Origin: Candidatus Aenigmatarchaeota archaeon
GTDB lineage: Archaea > Aenigmatarchaeota > Aenigmatarchaeia > QMZS01
Reading direction: 5' to 3'
Assembly (NCBI GenBank): GCA_016932615.1
Contig: JAFGCN010000027.1
Span: 44,033 to 108,032 of the forward strand
DNA: 64,000 bases
The position numbers were made by a program, and so were the translations under genes. A model generated the notes under the pieces. It saw nothing but the letters and a program-made list of their open reading frames with translations, ran no database searches and had not been told where the DNA came from. Below, piece by piece: positions 22,802-28,889 of this stretch (its first letter is position 1; every line of letters starts with the position of its first letter).

Positions 22802-23101
22802 GCGGGAGTGTCCGAGTCTGGCCAACGCTTTTTCTGCCTTTAAATCCCATGAAGGAATGGGGCGGAATGATGGTTAAAGGAGCAGGACTTAAGAAATTAA
22901 GTTTGGAGCCGAAAAACGGCGATGACTGCCGAAAAAGCTCTTTTAAGAAATCCTGTGCGTTAGTCGCTGCGAGGGTGAATCTTTTTCTTTTGAAAAAGAA
23001 AAAGCTCCAGGACCAAAAAGAAAACAAATATTTCGCTTCGCGGAATAATGCCTGAAGGTCGGGGAAGAAGATTTCCTTGAATTCGAATCCCTTCTCCCGC
23101 A
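22802..23101 (+). tRNA. tRNA-Leu(UAA) with three introns
   Basis: Exons 22802-22825, 22878-22893, 22950-22975 and 23082-23101 join to an 86-base tRNA. Acceptor GCGGGAG/CTCCCGC, D-stem TCC/GGA with G18G19 in AGTCTGGCCAA, anticodon stem CAGGA/TCCTG with loop CTTAAGA (anticodon TAA), a long class II variable arm with GCG/CGC stem, T-stem GAGGG/CCCTT, loop TTCGAAT, discriminator A. Introns are 52, 56 and 106 bases, at D-loop 21/22, 37/38 and 53/54. Each boundary has a 4-base central helix between 3-base bulges: GGCC:GGTT, CTTA:TAAG, CGAG:CTTG. Cutting after the second bulge base gives exactly these exons. CCA is not encoded. Intron 3 belongs to a shared two-hairpin element family. Confidence 0.88.
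22976..23081 (+). repeat. tRNA-Leu intron 3, copy A of a two-hairpin intron element
   Basis: Inside the closing stem (AATCTTTTTC with GAAGAAGATT) are hairpin 1, a perfect 10-base stem CTTTTTCTTT/AAAGAAAAAG (22981-23004), an A/C-rich spacer (ACCAAAAAGAA), and hairpin 2, TATTTCGC-TTC-GCGGAATA (23029-23047). The same order of parts, with similar bases, occurs in the tRNA-Cys intron and in the copy 3' of tRNA-Cys. Confidence 0.7.
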
Positions 23102-23120
23102 CATTTTTAAGGTCTGGCTT

Positions 23121-24503
23121 CTAGTTAAGCTTCTCTATGCAGCTTCCAAGCTGGAAAACTTTTCCTTCCTGCAAATGGTCGCCGATTATGTGAAGCCCTA
23201 TTGGCATTCCTTCGCTTCTGCCGACAGGAACGGACAGGTGAGGCACTCCGCAAAGGTTTGGCCCCACAGTCAGGATGTCCATTGCGTAGTGCTGGGCAGG
23301 CGTAAGCTCTGCGATGTCTGTGAACTTGGGAGCGACAATCGGCATTGTGGGCGTAACGATGCAGTCGAACTTCTGGAAAGCAGACTTGAATTCCTTTATC
23401 AAATGTGCTCGGACCTTCAGGGCTTTAAGGTAATACTTGTCCCTGTAGCCGGATTTCCTGTAGAATGTCCCAAGAATGCACCTCCTTTTTGCCTCGAGCC
23501 CAAAGTACTTCCCGCGGACTTTCGAGAAAAACTCGTTGTACCCTCCTTCAATCTCAAGGGTTGAGCCGTACCTTATGCCGCAGAACTTGGCAAGGTTTGT
23601 AGATGCCTCGCTCATCGCGATTATGTAGTATGACGGAAGCGCATACTTTGTGGAAGCAAGGGAGAACTCTTCGTACTTTATCCCGGCAGACTCTAGCTTT
23701 TTTATCTGCCTCCAGATTTCCTGCTTAATCTCTTCATTGACACCCTCGAAATATTCTTTGGGAACGCCCACCCTCATTTTCGAGGGATCTTTTTCAAGAA
23801 AGCTCGTATAATCCTCATCTTTTCGGTTTATTGAGGTGGAATCCCTTTCGTCAAATCCGGCAATTTTCGATAGGCCCCATGCGGCCTCAAAGCAGTTTTT
23901 GCCGATTATGCCGACCTTGTCGAGGGAAGAGGCGTAGTCTATCATTCCATATCTTGAAACCCTTCCGTATGTGGGTGTTATTCCGACCACTCCGCAAAAA
24001 GAGGCGGGGCAGGATATGGAGCCGCCGGTTGATTCTGCCATTGCAACGTGTGGCAGGTTCTGGAGTGCTGCAGTCAGGCATGCGGCGCCGCCCGAAGAGC
24101 CGCCGCAGCTTCTTCTGGGGTCAAGCGGGTTTTTGGGAACGCCGAAAGCGCAGTTCATGGAAAAAGTGCCAAAGCCAAACTCGTCCATTGCGGTCTTTCC
24201 TATGATGTAACCGAAGTTCTTTATTTTTTCAACCACGTGGGCGTCAAATGGGGGGACATAAGTTTCAAGTATCCTGCTCCCTGCGGTCGTCCTTATCCCG
24301 CTTGTGCAGAGGCAGTCCTTTACGGAAATTGGGACTCCTGGAAAGCTTTCCTTTGCGCCCATTTTCTCGCAGTGGCTTAGCGCTTCGTCTCTTGAAACTG
24401 TAATAAAGGGCCCGAATTTGCCCTGAATTCTGTCAACTTCCTTCCATATCTTTTCAAATACTTCCCCCTGGTTGGGGTTTTCGAGATATTCCTTAAGGTC
24501 CAT
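23121..24503 (-). CDS. gatA: Asp/Glu-tRNA amidotransferase subunit A
   Basis: Amidase subunit of GatCAB, which turns mischarged Asp-tRNA(Asn) and/or Glu-tRNA(Gln) into the amide form using glutamine. 460 residues. The amidase signature is clear: catalytic Lys in SVKDCL, GGSSGGAACL, and the Ser-cisSer pair in ESTGGSISCPASFCGVVG. GatB is encoded nearby (27.5-28.9 kb, same strand) but not adjacent, and no gatC is visible in the window. The start lies just downstream of an AT-rich promoter. Confidence 0.93.
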   Translation of the reverse strand: MDLKEYLENPNQGEVFEKIWKEVDRIQGKFGPFITVSRDEALSHCEKMGAKESFPGVPISVKDCLCTSGIRTTAGSRILETYVPPFDAHVVEKIKNFGYIIGKTAMDEFGFGTFSMNCAFGVPKNPLDPRRSCGGSSGGAACLTAALQNLPHVAMAESTGGSISCPASFCGVVGITPTYGRVSRYGMIDYASSLDKVGIIGKNCFEAAWGLSKIAGFDERDSTSINRKDEDYTSFLEKDPSKMRVGVPKEYFEGVNEEIKQEIWRQIKKLESAGIKYEEFSLASTKYALPSYYIIAMSEASTNLAKFCGIRYGSTLEIEGGYNEFFSKVRGKYFGLEAKRRCILGTFYRKSGYRDKYYLKALKVRAHLIKEFKSAFQKFDCIVTPTMPIVAPKFTDIAELTPAQHYAMDILTVGPNLCGVPHLSVPVGRSEGMPIGLHIIGDHLQEGKVFQLGSCIEKLN

Positions 24504-24629
24504 AAAATACCTAGATTTTATAAGGTTTTGAAAGTGCCGCGTTTTTCCTCTTTTTTTGCTTAAATACGCTCTTTGGGCTGCAGCCGGACCCCTGCTGAGC
24601 CATATTTAACATTTAGCCCTTCTTTCTAA

Positions 24630-24887
24630 ATGGGAAAAGCAATTCTTTGTTACGAAATAATGCCGGAAAGCATTGAGTCAGTTGACCTGGTGGAGGAAGG
24701 GCTCAAAAAGCTTAATCCCGGAAAAATCGAAAAAAAGCCGATTGCCTTCGGGCTCAGCGCATTTGAGGTGACCTTTATCATCGAGGATGCGGAAGGGGCT
24801 GCAGGCAACACCGACGAAATCGAGACAAACCTTGAGAAAGTAGAGGGAGTCGGCTCGGTGAAGAGCATGGGCGTAACCCTTGCTTAG
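24630..24887 (+). CDS. Translation elongation factor 1-beta
   Basis: The archaeal guanine-nucleotide exchange factor for EF-1alpha, 85 residues, the usual length. Family segments: KIEKKPIAFGLSAFEVTFII, EDAEGAAGNTDEIE and VEGVGSVKSMGV. Ferredoxin-like fold. A TATA-like CATATTTAACATTT lies directly before the ATG. It is divergent from gatA. Confidence 0.92.
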   Translation: MGKAILCYEIMPESIESVDLVEEGLKKLNPGKIEKKPIAFGLSAFEVTFIIEDAEGAAGNTDEIETNLEKVEGVGSVKSMGVTLA

Positions 24888-24912
24888 ACACAGTTTGCTG
24901 TTTGTTTTTGGC

Positions 24913-25284
24913 TTATATGATGCCCATTGATACTGACAGGGCAAGCTCGTGCTTTCTGAAGTAAAAATTCGCTTTTAGGGCTGCTTTTGGGTCCGGGCTT
25001 TTGCAATAAATTTCTCCAAGCGCAGAGTAGACGGGAACCAGACGACGGGCCAGCTGGGGGTAGAAGTTCCAGTGTATGTCTGGATGAAGCTTTTCTGCCC
25101 TTTTGTTCGCGTCTTCGTAATTTTTCATTGCTCTCTCAAGGGCACTAATTCTTTTGGACCCGTTCAGCCGTTTTGAAGCTTCATAGTCTTTGGCTCCGCT
25201 TACAATCAGTTATACCAGTTCCGGGTCTCTTTCAACCCAGAAGTCGTGGCTGTAAGCCGGGCCCAGATAACCCAATTCTGCCAT
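24913..25284 (-). pseudogene. Helical-repeat protein gene interrupted by one in-frame TAA
   Basis: From ATG 25284 the frame reads 24 residues (MAELGYLGPAYSHDFWVERD...), then a single TAA at 25210-25212, then 98 more coding-like residues in the same frame to the stop at 24913. The longer part contains YEDANKRAEKLHP and YSALGEIYCKSPDPKAAL, resembling TPR-type helix pairs. CAA to TAA is a one-base change. The 210 bases upstream (25285-25494) hold no other gene; they are AT-rich with a short GCCGA/TCGGC hairpin. Confidence 0.5.
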
Positions 25285-25509
25285 GCATACCCTTAGGTTT
25301 TTTGGAATTTAAGTTTCTCAAGTATTGCTATTAAAACAAGTACATTTAGATGACGAAAACAAAAAATTGAGCCGATTTCGGCGATGATTGGTGATGGGCG
25401 AACGGATACTCTATTTTCTTTTTCTGGAACTTTGTACGTTTTTTGTAATGCTTTTGCCAGACAATCGTATTTTTTTCCAGCTTAAAAAAAAGCATTGCTT
25501 TCTCTAGTT

Positions 25510-25971
25510 ATGCCTTTCAGGAAAACTCTTCCCGGTTCTAACCTCTATCGTGGGGAGTTGCTCTTTTTCAAAGTACTGGAAGGATGCAACGGGGGAAGTT
25601 CAGGCAGATCGGATTATTCTGCTGTCTTGGATTTTCCGCCAAGTTACTTGATCTTTGCAGATGAGAATATACCGCAGATGCTGATAGCTGCAGTTGGCGA
25701 AAATGCTACGGCGCACAGGATTTCCAGTGTTGTCAGAGAAGAGCCTATTTTTGGGCTAAAGCGTCGTATGCTCGATATGGATATTGAAGATATCGCCTTT
25801 CTTTATGGAGGGGCTTATATACTTAGTTCTGACCGTGATTTTAGGAATTATCCTCGCAGAATTTACATCAAGCAAAGTTCCGTAGGATATAAAACGCCTC
25901 AACTGGAGAAAGACCTTCAGGTGGTTATGGAGCGCCTTTCCCAGGATTTTCCAGAATACTCTCCTAGATAG
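25510..25971 (+). CDS. Protein of unknown function
   Basis: 153 residues from ATG 25510 (a TTG 15 bases earlier is in frame but less likely). Mixed alpha/beta, soluble, no recognised motif. Segments such as DFPPSYLIFADENIP and IAFLYGGAYILSSDRDF look like strand-rich core. It is followed after 36 bases by another unknown gene, and both may be one accessory unit. Confidence 0.55.
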   Translation: MPFRKTLPGSNLYRGELLFFKVLEGCNGGSSGRSDYSAVLDFPPSYLIFADENIPQMLIAAVGENATAHRISSVVREEPIFGLKRRMLDMDIEDIAFLYGGAYILSSDRDFRNYPRRIYIKQSSVGYKTPQLEKDLQVVMERLSQDFPEYSPR

Positions 25972-26007
25972 ATTATTGTTTTTTTTAAATAATTACTTTT
26001 TACTTTC

Positions 26008-26679
26008 ATGGGCACTGGACTTAGTAGCGTTAATTCTGGTCTTCCAGATAGGTTTCCAATCGGTCTTTGTTTGGACGAGAAAGGCCGGTATAGAGACACT
26101 TCTGTTTACTTGGAGATGCCAGAAACCCTTCTTCTTGGAAATGTTGAACAAATACGCTCAAGGAAGACTCGTGGTGGCAAAACTGGAACACAAATGTATC
26201 GGGATGCAGGTTCCTTGGAATTTAGCGCCTCCTCAGAACCGTATAAAGAAGCTCATGATCTGCTATATTGTTATGCTGATCAACTGTCCCGTGAGATATT
26301 GACTCCGCCTAATGATCCACAGGAACACTTTCTTAAGGGGTATATTCTTACAAATCTGGGCAAAAATCCTTCAGGCTCCAAAAGAAGGTCAGTTTTGGAG
26401 GTTCTTGAGAGAACTCCAAGAAGTACCAACCTGGAATTTTCCCTTGCGGTCTGCAATGCGTTTGAGGTATCTCCAGGAGTTTTTGTTGAGCTAGACACCC
26501 CTTATCCCAATTCAGTCAGGTATTTTGCTGAATTTCACATAGAAGCATCTCCTGGCGAGATAAGAGTTATCCCTGCAAGGATAAGGGATGCTGGTAGAGG
26601 AAGCGGAGAAAGCGAACTTGAATTTAATAAGGTAGTTTTAGCACGATTTCTTTATGATTTTTCCAGGGCTCACCGGTAG
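26008..26679 (+). CDS. Protein of unknown function
   Basis: 223 residues, soluble. The middle is helical (PYKEAHDLLYCYADQLSRE); the C-terminal half is beta-rich (VFVELDTPYPNSVRYFAEFH). I recognise no family. A T-rich stretch with TAAATAATTACTTT lies just before the ATG. It lies directly upstream of tRNA-Cys in the same direction. Confidence 0.55.
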   Translation: MGTGLSSVNSGLPDRFPIGLCLDEKGRYRDTSVYLEMPETLLLGNVEQIRSRKTRGGKTGTQMYRDAGSLEFSASSEPYKEAHDLLYCYADQLSREILTPPNDPQEHFLKGYILTNLGKNPSGSKRRSVLEVLERTPRSTNLEFSLAVCNAFEVSPGVFVELDTPYPNSVRYFAEFHIEASPGEIRVIPARIRDAGRGSGESELEFNKVVLARFLYDFSRAHR

Positions 26680-26716
26680 ATCTGGCATTAATTGATTTAA
26701 ATTCAAATAGAATTAC

Positions 26717-26867
26717 GCGGAGGTGGCAGAACAGCTATGCATCCGGCTGCAGTCCTACCCTTTCTTTGCAAAAGAAAGGCTGAGGTTCACCCAAAGAAAG
26801 CAGATTCCTGCTTCGCAGAAACAAAAGCGGTTACCGGACCAAGAGGGTGCGACTCCCTCCCTCCGCT
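26717..26867 (+). tRNA. tRNA-Cys(GCA) with one intron
   Basis: Exons 26717-26752 and 26833-26867 join to 71 bases. Acceptor GCGGAGG/CCTCCGC, D-stem GCAG/ATGC, anticodon stem TCCGG/CCGGA with loop CTGCAGA (anticodon GCA), T-stem GAGGG/CCCTC, discriminator T (U73), as usual for tRNA-Cys. The 80-base intron lies at 37/38 with a bulge-helix-bulge: outer TCCGG/CCGGA, bulges AGT and TTA, central CTGC:GCGG. Oddities: the D-loop AACAGCT lacks the G18G19 pair, and the T-loop TGCGACT has G where U55 is expected; these positions normally contact each other. Confidence 0.85.
26753..26832 (+). repeat. tRNA-Cys intron, copy B of the two-hairpin intron element
   Basis: Hairpin 1 is CCTTTCTTT/AAAGAAAGG (26759-26779), followed by a spacer with ACCCAAAGAAAG and hairpin 2 CTGC-TTC-GCAG (26808-26818), then AAAGCGGTTA at the splice site. 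ATTCCTGCTTCGCAG (26804-26818) is identical in copy C. Confidence 0.75.
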
Positions 26868-26868
26868 G

Positions 26869-26952
26869 TCAGACCTTTTCTTTAGGAAAGAAAAGGGCCG
26901 ACACCCCCAAAAGAACCCTATTCCTGCTTCGCAGGAATAACAGCGGTCTGAT
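26869..26952 (+). repeat. Free copy C of the two-hairpin intron element, 3' of tRNA-Cys
   Basis: It starts within two bases of the tRNA-Cys 3' end. It contains hairpin 1 CCTTTTCTTT/AAAGAAAAGG (26874-26896), a spacer CCCCCAAAAGAACCC, and hairpin 2 ATTCCTGC-TTC-GCAGGAAT (26920-26938), then CAGCGGTCTGA. It is closed by TCAGACC/GGTCTGA. It aligns over its whole length with the tRNA-Cys intron and with tRNA-Leu intron 3. No tRNA exons flank it. Confidence 0.7.
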
Positions 26953-26977
26953 AAGCGCAAGAGAAGCTATTGGCAGC

Positions 26978-27452: not shown

Positions 27453-28889
27453 CTAAATCATATCCTTAATCATCTCCCTTATCCTTCCCGGTGACGCATG
27501 ACGCCCGGATTTCTTCATCACCTGCCCGACGAGGTAGTTGAATGCCTCTTCATGCCCGTTCTCGTAGTCCCGAACCGCCTTTGCGTTGCCCCGTATGACG
27601 TCCCGGACATACTTTTCGAGCTGCTCTTCTTCCAGGGGCTTGTCAAGCTTCAGGTCTCGCAGAACATGGTCCGGCTCCCTTACCTTCTGCTTTTTGACGG
27701 CGTCGTAAACCATCTCCCTGATGACAAGCTCGGCAACATCGTCCATTATCTTGTAATCCTGGAGCAGGTCGAGAAGCCTCCTCAGGTGCCTTATCTCGAT
27801 TCCGCTGTCCTTAAGCGAAATGTTGTGGTAGTTGAGGGTCTTTTTCACGTATTTTGCAAGTATTGTCGCGGCTGGCTTTTCGCTGTGGGTTTCGCAAAGG
27901 TACTCGAAGTAATTTGCCATTTCGGGCTCCGTAAGAATTGTGTCAATAATCTCCTCAGAAATCGTGCCCATTTTCAGGTATCTCTTTTTCTTCAGGTCAG
28001 GAAGCTCCGGGAGGTTTGACTGGACCTTGTTAAGAAGCTCGTCATCAATTTCCATGATGGGCAGGTCCGGCTCAAATATATATCCGTAGTCTTCCTCCTC
28101 TTCCTTTGCCCTGGCGCTTGTGGTGGTCTTGGTCTTCTCATTCCAGAGCCGGGTTTCCCTCTTTACTTCCTGCACGTTTTTCTGGCGTATTATCTCAAAG
28201 CTCAGGCTCTTTTCGACGTCCTTTATGCCGGAGATATTTTTGATTTCAACCCTTTCGCCATCTTTTTTCTGCTCGACCATCCTTCCGAGGAATGGGTCGA
28301 AAACGTTTTCAAATCGGGTGACGGAAATGTTTGCGTCCATCCTCATGCATCCCTCTTTTCTAAAGTCAGTTACGTAAAGGTATTCAATAATCTGCTGGAG
28401 CTTTTGCAGGAAAAGCCGCGCTTCGGCGGGGCTTGACAGGTCCGGCTCGGTCACTATCTCGACCAGGGGAGTTCCGGAGCGGTTGTAATCAAGAAGGCAG
28501 CAGTCATCTTTTCTTACAATCCTTGCAGGGTCTTCCTCGAGGTGAATGCCCCGGAGCCGAATCTCTTTGTTGTTGATTTTAACTGACCCACCTCTTGCAA
28601 GCTTTACCTCCTGCTGGGTAATCTGGTAATCCTTGGACAAGTCCGGGTAAAAGTAAGTTTTCCTCGAGAACAGAAATCTCCTGTTGAGGTTGCAGCCGAG
28701 GGCAAGTGCTATCTTTATGCCCTGCTCTATCGCTTTTTCGTTTAGCCGCGGCTTGGTTCCCGGAAAGCCGAGGCACACATCGCATACATTTGTGTTTGGC
28801 TCTGCGTTTTCGTTTGCGCAGGAGCAGAATAATTTTGAGCGCGTGTCTAGCTGCACATGGACTTCAAGCCCTATTCTTATGCCTTCCAT
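27453..28889 (-). CDS. gatB: Asp/Glu-tRNA amidotransferase subunit B
   Basis: tRNA-binding and kinase subunit of GatCAB, 478 residues. The N-terminal cradle domain has GLEVHVQLDTRSKLFCSC, the zinc-type cysteines in FCSCANENAEPNTNVCDVC, and the YPDLSKDYQITQQ and GIHLEEDPAR segments of the active site. The C-terminal YqeY-like tail domain is present (SGRHASPGRIREMIKDMI). It pairs with gatA at 23.1-24.5 kb. Confidence 0.93.
   Translation of the reverse strand: MEGIRIGLEVHVQLDTRSKLFCSCANENAEPNTNVCDVCLGFPGTKPRLNEKAIEQGIKIALALGCNLNRRFLFSRKTYFYPDLSKDYQITQQEVKLARGGSVKINNKEIRLRGIHLEEDPARIVRKDDCCLLDYNRSGTPLVEIVTEPDLSSPAEARLFLQKLQQIIEYLYVTDFRKEGCMRMDANISVTRFENVFDPFLGRMVEQKKDGERVEIKNISGIKDVEKSLSFEIIRQKNVQEVKRETRLWNEKTKTTTSARAKEEEEDYGYIFEPDLPIMEIDDELLNKVQSNLPELPDLKKKRYLKMGTISEEIIDTILTEPEMANYFEYLCETHSEKPAATILAKYVKKTLNYHNISLKDSGIEIRHLRRLLDLLQDYKIMDDVAELVIREMVYDAVKKQKVREPDHVLRDLKLDKPLEEEQLEKYVRDVIRGNAKAVRDYENGHEEAFNYLVGQVMKKSGRHASPGRIREMIKDMI

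Follow-up and report, generated by a model that had tools for sequence, protein, structure and literature searches.

The tRNA-Cys intron, the third tRNA-Leu intron and a free copy beside tRNA-Cys, all within 64,000 nucleotides of a Candidatus Aenigmatarchaeota archaeon (assembly GCA_016932615.1, contig JAFGCN010000027.1, positions 44,033 to 108,032; hereafter the window), belong to one family as judged by sequence comparison. On the same kind of evidence, the family is a dispersed hairpin element, and its copies within tRNA genes are introns. The reading we favor, with a confidence somewhat above even, is that of a mobile DNA element, short (about 55-100 bp) and non-coding, one strand of which can fold into a triplex, tolerated in tRNA genes as a bulge-helix-bulge (BHB) intron that the splicing endonuclease EndA removes. 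This reading is carried by the homology of copies across tRNAs and tRNA positions, the BHB sites found for most automatically assigned copies, a mirror co-variation inside the element, the occurrence of both orientations and the presence of copies outside tRNA genes. Movement as DNA, triplex formation and removal by EndA are what we infer.

A family of introns spread between tRNAs

The three stretches were found where an earlier note on the window had placed them, and the 15-mer it had reported as common to the tRNA-Cys intron and the free copy (ATTCCTGCTTCGCAG) was confirmed; these two align without gaps, with 70% identity over 90 nt. The note had also described a common plan made of a pyrimidine/purine hairpin, a spacer and a second hairpin with a GC-TTC-GC tip. 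Hairpin 1 and the spacer proved constant, whereas the second hairpin is variable or missing in many copies. The spacer itself belongs to the constant region but has no fixed sequence: from copy to copy its A/G run changes with the purine arm of hairpin 1, of which it is the mirror image.

The note had proposed a covariance model, and one (R1) was built for hairpin 1 plus spacer, 53 positions, from an alignment of 23 copies in which stem co-variation exceeds all shuffles. R1 found additional copies in the genome of the window (G000; 1.26 Mb, 29 contigs, 97% complete) and in related genomes (65-89% complete). In G000, 46 matches were obtained at E <= 1e-4, with weaker ones beyond, and 61 copies were considered credible; the top matches, both from outside the seed, were C22:4186 (68.9 bits) and C10:41895 (65.4 bits). 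Intron 3 of tRNA-Leu matched with 50.6 bits (E 2.8e-9). Weak matches at C7:84841, C27:32806 and C10:57418 were discarded as they scored under 20 bits. A BLASTN search of the same genome with the free copy retrieved the tRNA-Cys intron and over a dozen more copies, mostly within tRNA genes. All 11 genomes of the order harbor the family, the other ten with 1-8 matches at E <= 1e-4 against the 46 of G000; across the phylum, 56 of 156 genomes had a match at this threshold. Neither the window nor the element copies of 8 loci yielded an Rfam match above the gathering score.

Introns of different tRNAs, at different positions, can be nearly identical in the 53-nt module. Identity reaches 96% between the introns of Ala-GGC (53/54) and Arg-CCT (37/38), and again between those of Gly-TCC (37/38) and Val-TAC (59/60); it is 89% between Ala-TGC (53/54) and Arg-TCG (37/38), and 82% between tRNA-Leu intron 3 and the D-loop intron of tRNA-Tyr. 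Orthologous introns (same tRNA, same site) of sister genomes share only 57-70%, which argues that introns were exchanged or copied among tRNAs inside the lineage after the genera separated. The proposal of the earlier note that introns of different tRNAs and positions share ancestry, and hence that the intron itself has moved, is borne out by these figures, and we consider it strongly supported by the alignments.

Two explanations that dispense with movement were weighed. If splicing favored hairpin introns, unrelated introns could come to look alike, and a hairpin near the 5' splice site is indeed common to all. Convergence of this kind is hardly credible: identities up to 96% over 53 nt refute it for most copies, model scores of 68 bits occur outside the seed, and 100 of the 156 genomes of the phylum have no match at E <= 1e-4. 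Gene conversion among old introns, without new insertions, would likewise make paralogous introns alike inside one genome. This is very improbable, though less so, as the most similar introns lie in different tRNAs, at different positions and with unlike flanks, so that no shared exon sequence could guide conversion; besides, a genome from another genus of the same taxonomic family (G005) has a tRNA-Cys without intron.

The same G005 genome carries a copy directly 3' of its intronless tRNA-Cys, with a module 66% identical to that of the free copy in the window. The latter is therefore an old resident, or the outcome of repeated landing at one and the same site, and not a fresh intermediate. 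The suggestion that it might be a transposition intermediate thus found no support.

The mirror rule

For most copies, the A/G run of the spacer read backwards gives the sequence of the hairpin 1 purine arm. Examples of arm and spacer are AAGAAAAA / AAAAAGAA, AAAGAAAA / AAAAGAAA, AAGAAAGG / CCCCAAAGAA and AAGAAGG / CCCCAAGAA; in the free copy the mirrored arm is AAAAGAAAG and the spacer AAAAGAACC. Judged against shuffles that ignore the relatedness of the copies, an exact 7-nt mirror was present in 75 of 96 copies (22 expected; maximum 36 in 2000 shuffles), in 37 of 48 tRNA introns of G000 (mean 10.9 expected; maximum 21 in 5000 shuffles) and in 57 of 60 class-level copies outside the model seed (23.7 expected). 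Among the 39 informative tRNA introns of G000, the spacer corresponds to the mirrored arm in 30 and to the unmirrored arm in 3. Register shifts inside one sub-family (Gly-TCC versus Ala-GGC) show a coordinated change of arm and spacer. In the few copies whose arms disagree, the spacer follows one arm in two cases and the other arm in two.

Mirror symmetry is incompatible with Watson-Crick pairing and matches the requirement of an intrastrand triplex. Potential intrastrand triplex repeats (PIT/BoxC) are known in bacteria (PMC4666352), and the element studied here shares with them a third segment that mirrors the purine arm. Like PIT/BoxC and TMECO elements (PMC4666352), it consists of a pyrimidine arm, a loop, a purine arm, a loop and a second purine arm that mirrors the first, and it is dispersed in many copies in either orientation. 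However, those elements lie between genes, are rich in G/C and have no known occurrence as introns, whereas this one is A/T-rich in the arms of every copy read, has a spacer of 10-14 nt and forms tRNA introns. A triplex in the sense transcript was considered and discarded: pyrimidine-motif triplexes do form in RNA, but purine-motif ones reportedly do not (PMC4666352). The transcribed strand of the tRNA introns is the purine strand; selection for the mirror rule therefore probably acts at the DNA level.

Locations of the copies

The features of the window are listed in Table 1. Neither ARAGORN nor Rfam called any tRNA in the window because both tRNA-Cys and tRNA-Leu carry introns; genome-wide, the Rfam tRNA model recognized 8 tRNAs in G000 and over 20 in many members of the class. 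Automatic splicing of tRNA-Cys yielded a BHB with all 5 outer and all 4 central helix pairs, and ARAGORN named the spliced gene tRNA-Cys. For tRNA-Leu(TAA), spliced manually, ARAGORN returned tRNA-??? with (taag), that is, without an assigned isotype. The other two introns of this tRNA, in the D loop (22822-22873) and at the anticodon (22894-22949), do not match the family model, and introns without the module are also present in several other tRNAs. The free copy is closed by TCAGACC/GGTCTGA, with TGTCAGACC/GGGCCGACA as an alternative pairing. Its fold is more stable than that of shuffled sequences (z = -4.6), while the tRNA-Cys intron and tRNA-Leu intron 3 alone are unremarkable (z about -1.3).

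Table 1. Features of the window related to the element, in window coordinates.
Feature	Position	Strand	Remarks
tRNA-Leu, anticodon TAA at 22890-22892, three introns	22802..23101	+	Cloverleaf by manual splicing
tRNA-Leu intron 3, position 53/54, family member (TGAATC-hairpin-linker-AAAAAGAA)	22976..23081	+	Own-genome position C27:67008
tRNA-Cys(GCA), exons 26717-26752 and 26833-26867	26717..26867	+	Automatic BHB splicing
tRNA-Cys intron, position 37/38, family member	26753..26832	+	R1 51.9 bits; exact splice sites from BHB
Free copy	26868..26953	+	R1 45.9 bits; first base directly follows the tRNA-Cys discriminator base
Hairpin 1 core of free copy	26874..26896	+	Pyrimidine arm CCTTTTCTTT, loop, purine arm AAAGAAAAGG
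Spacer of free copy, around ACCCCCAAAAGAA	26902..26916	+	Mirrors purine arm
gatB, neighbor of the tRNA-Cys locus	27453..28889	-	Control gene for gene-start copies

Copies were assigned by automatic BHB splicing, by hand splicing checked with ARAGORN or by reading the sequence; introns at 53/54, whose outer helix is weak, were spliced by hand and rechecked with ARAGORN. In G000, 52 of the 61 copies are sense introns, distributed over 36 tRNA genes, about three quarters of which were machine-checked after splicing (Leu-TAG, Pro and Ser-TGA were assigned by reading alone). Their sites are the D loop (6), 37/38 (17), the variable arm (1), 53/54 or 54/55 (16) and 59/60 (12). A strict BHB (outer helix 5/5, central helix 4/4) was found by automatic splicing in many copies at 37/38 and 59/60; at 53/54 the central helix is present. 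ARAGORN recognized 19 of 19 spliced tRNAs, one of them (Leu-CAA) without a standard isotype. These introns thus display the traits of archaeal BHB tRNA introns: a BHB junction (4-bp central helix, 3-nt bulges), a normal tRNA after removal and an EndA gene in the genome, splicing itself being predicted. An apparent tRNA-Leu with anticodon AAG (loop CTAAGGA) was also seen in G000 (C10:41895-42053), G006 (C13) and G138 (C74). A34 is unusual in archaea.

Seven further copies of G000 lie inside introns or next to tRNAs or tRNA fragments. Antisense copies are nested in the 59/60 introns of Trp (C29:35463) and Leu-CAA (C18:48942), and four more lie just downstream of tRNAs. Beyond three of these four comes a duplicated piece of the tRNA 3' end (Gln-TTG, Val-TAC and Arg-TCG); the 5' end of Val-CAC is also duplicated, with a sense copy after the duplicate. 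When aligned locally, the duplicated pieces scored 13-17 against shuffled maxima of 11-16; taken singly, the pieces are suggestive rather than certain. Free copies of G000 are two: that of the window and one at C11:42449. The latter lies 3 nt away from the start of a gene that runs on the other strand and resembles that for the RFC large subunit, and it shares 80% identity with the Val-GAC intron. Another repeated motif, AACTGCAAACAGTTTTATCATTTA, lies 3' of a gene in G000 (L015, C27 around 32770) and upstream of or inside tRNA D-loop introns in G009 and G010 (L096, L117); it may represent another intron family.

The earlier note had reasoned that hundreds of copies unrelated to tRNAs would make the family a general dispersed repeat. 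In G000 nearly all credible copies lie in or beside tRNAs. In relatives, however, many copies are unrelated to tRNAs, so the label "tRNA intron element" is too narrow. Twenty-five copies read in relatives, plus the one in G000, begin 0-4 nt away from the start codon of an opposite-strand gene; others lie at or just past stop codons, or after tRNA 3' ends. From N-termini read by eye, the genes with start-adjacent copies appear to be mainly housekeeping genes: their products look like L40e, uS3, L6, S17e and L7Ae/L30e proteins, RNA-polymerase subunits F and A', RFC subunits, a HerA-like ATPase and GatA, all of them putative names. A gene-start copy of G008 is 89% identical to a T-loop intron of G005, and the two are therefore the same element. 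Two further copies deserve mention. One (L122, G137 C73:4792) begins exactly at the stop codon of a gene with a splicing-endonuclease-like C-terminus; in the other (L102, G001 C44:52447), the module is followed by a stretch (CTAGCCAAAAAGAAAAATAATCTTATCCAAGCATAAGACACTTT) that recurs in tandem ahead of a masked N run. Pattern scans of viral contigs for a carrier yielded one match (L129), which we attribute to chance given its low score (10.6 bits) and its location in a coding region of a phage-like contig.

Placement 0-4 nt upstream of ATG in genes that resemble those for L40e, uS3, L6, S17e, RpoF, RpoA' and RFC raises the alternative that the module is a switchable leader hairpin of ribosomal-protein, RNA-polymerase and RFC genes, with the tRNA introns in the same regulon. 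Bases that follow hairpin 1 in gene-start copies pair either with the 5' flank or with a segment downstream, and both competing helices co-vary. The L40e copy is present in two distant families (f1 and f16), while none of 30 gatB loci has a copy at the gene start. A regulatory role is nevertheless quite unlikely as the explanation of the family. Among 30 L40e loci across the phylum, a strong or moderate gene-start match was found in five (G002, G005, G008, G078 and G082) and a visible remnant in a sixth (G009), a patchy distribution for one and the same gene. Moreover, orientation relative to the transcript is opposite in tRNAs and mRNAs, and copies in 36 tRNA genes of one genome would be left unexplained.

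Mechanism and relation to known elements

Movement might also have taken place at the RNA level: once EndA has cut them out, introns with 5'-OH and cyclic-phosphate ends would be ligated or reverse-spliced into other cut tRNAs, followed by cDNA recombination, and free copies would be by-products. This scenario fits the sense orientation of most copies and their ends, which coincide exactly with BHB splice sites, as well as the adjacency of free copies to a tRNA 3' end. We regard it as rather unlikely, however. The RVT_1 reverse transcriptase, expected of a retro-element of group II intron or retron type, was found in none of the order's 11 genomes; antisense copies inside introns or at start codons would be unexpected; and the mirror rule would be without a role in sense RNA.

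For the mobile DNA element that we favor, the following sequence of events is proposed. A single DNA strand would fold so that the mirroring spacer serves as third strand to the pyrimidine/purine hairpin, giving an intrastrand triplex. The triplex-capable element would be copied into new sites, with a preference for tRNA genes and the edges of housekeeping genes. A copy in a tRNA gene whose 3' end pairs with the tRNA loop would create a BHB junction and be excised by EndA, and would therefore be tolerated; copies without a matching 3' end would be lost or left as fragments. Repeated copying would have filled most tRNA genes of G000, and in relatives the element would also settle at the edges of protein and tRNA genes.

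Several points weigh against this proposal. The triplex is a prediction from co-variation. Each intron's 3' end matches its own tRNA, a match that simple cut-and-paste insertion does not explain. About 95% of the copies of G000 are associated with tRNAs, more than expected of a free DNA element unless targeting is strong. No empty/filled site was seen at the population level. Finally, searches of G000 for RVT_1 and Y1_Tnp, to which the hunt for a transposase was limited, found neither protein, and the element thus lacks a known agent. Y1 transposases do occur in 5 of the 11 genomes of the order; they are of IS200/IS605 type and were seen in G002, G004, G005, G006 and G007, the most (6 matches) in G005.

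Transposed tRNA introns of Thermoproteales were reportedly described by Fujishima et al. 2010 (Mol Biol Evol 27:2233). Spread among tRNAs was inferred there earlier (PMC4090602, PMC4033280), and non-canonical introns are usually linked to a two-subunit or epsilon-type EndA (PMC4033280). As in Thermoproteales, introns in different tRNAs are here more alike than orthologous ones. Unlike in that group, nearly all introns are built on a single structured module that shows mirror co-variation; copies are not confined to tRNA genes but also occur at gene starts, at tRNA ends and in intergenic DNA; copies are found in both orientations; and EndA is represented by a single gene of plain type (C18:45567; PF01974 and PF02778, one-unit architecture). 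In this EndA (L041) the usual N and C domains are preceded by an acidic N-terminal extension, about 110 residues long and probably disordered.

REP/RAYT elements and palindromic miniature inverted-repeat transposable elements (MITEs) derived from IS200/IS605 are short, dispersed, intergenic, non-coding hairpins. The element resembles them in being short, dispersed, non-coding and hairpin-shaped; however, G000 lacks a Y1 transposase, and the third-strand mirror and the tRNA-intron habit are foreign to that group. The disrupted tRNA-Thr of Caldiarchaeum (PMC3293823) offers another parallel, intron gain with a leftover tRNA fragment nearby, a situation that Val-CAC, Gln, Val-TAC and Arg present here as well. 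For Caldiarchaeum, the proposal was a 1.8-kb recombinase element (PMC3293823), while here only the non-coding element lies between the fragments.

Introners are eukaryotic mobile elements that create spliceosomal introns (cited in PMC11782384). The family shares with them the trait of a mobile element that generates spliceable introns, but it differs in its BHB/EndA splicing, in its domain of life and in that no transposase is known. Tentatively, and with the odds somewhat against us, we propose an archaeal counterpart of introners: a mobile DNA element with an intrastrand triplex that would insert into strongly transcribed genes, at their edges and loops, and bring its own BHB junction into tRNAs. 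What appears new with respect to prior cases is the mirror co-variation and the occurrence of the module outside tRNAs, at start codons of opposite-strand genes or directly 3' of tRNAs.

The origin of archaeal tRNA introns is debated, with ancient relics and recent arrivals as the opposing views. In G000, most of the tRNA introns read belong to one recognizable, structurally constrained family, which makes intron gain directly testable thanks to many near-identical copies, antisense copies, tRNA fragments and copies outside tRNAs. Standard tRNA finders miss most tRNAs in such genomes. The mirror rule provides a physical handle (triplex-forming DNA) absent from earlier cases, and the gene-start copies tie tRNA introns to a wider class of repeats. 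If our proposal is true, tRNA introns would still be arising directly from the element, as would, in relatives, leader hairpins adjacent to the start codons of ribosomal-protein genes.

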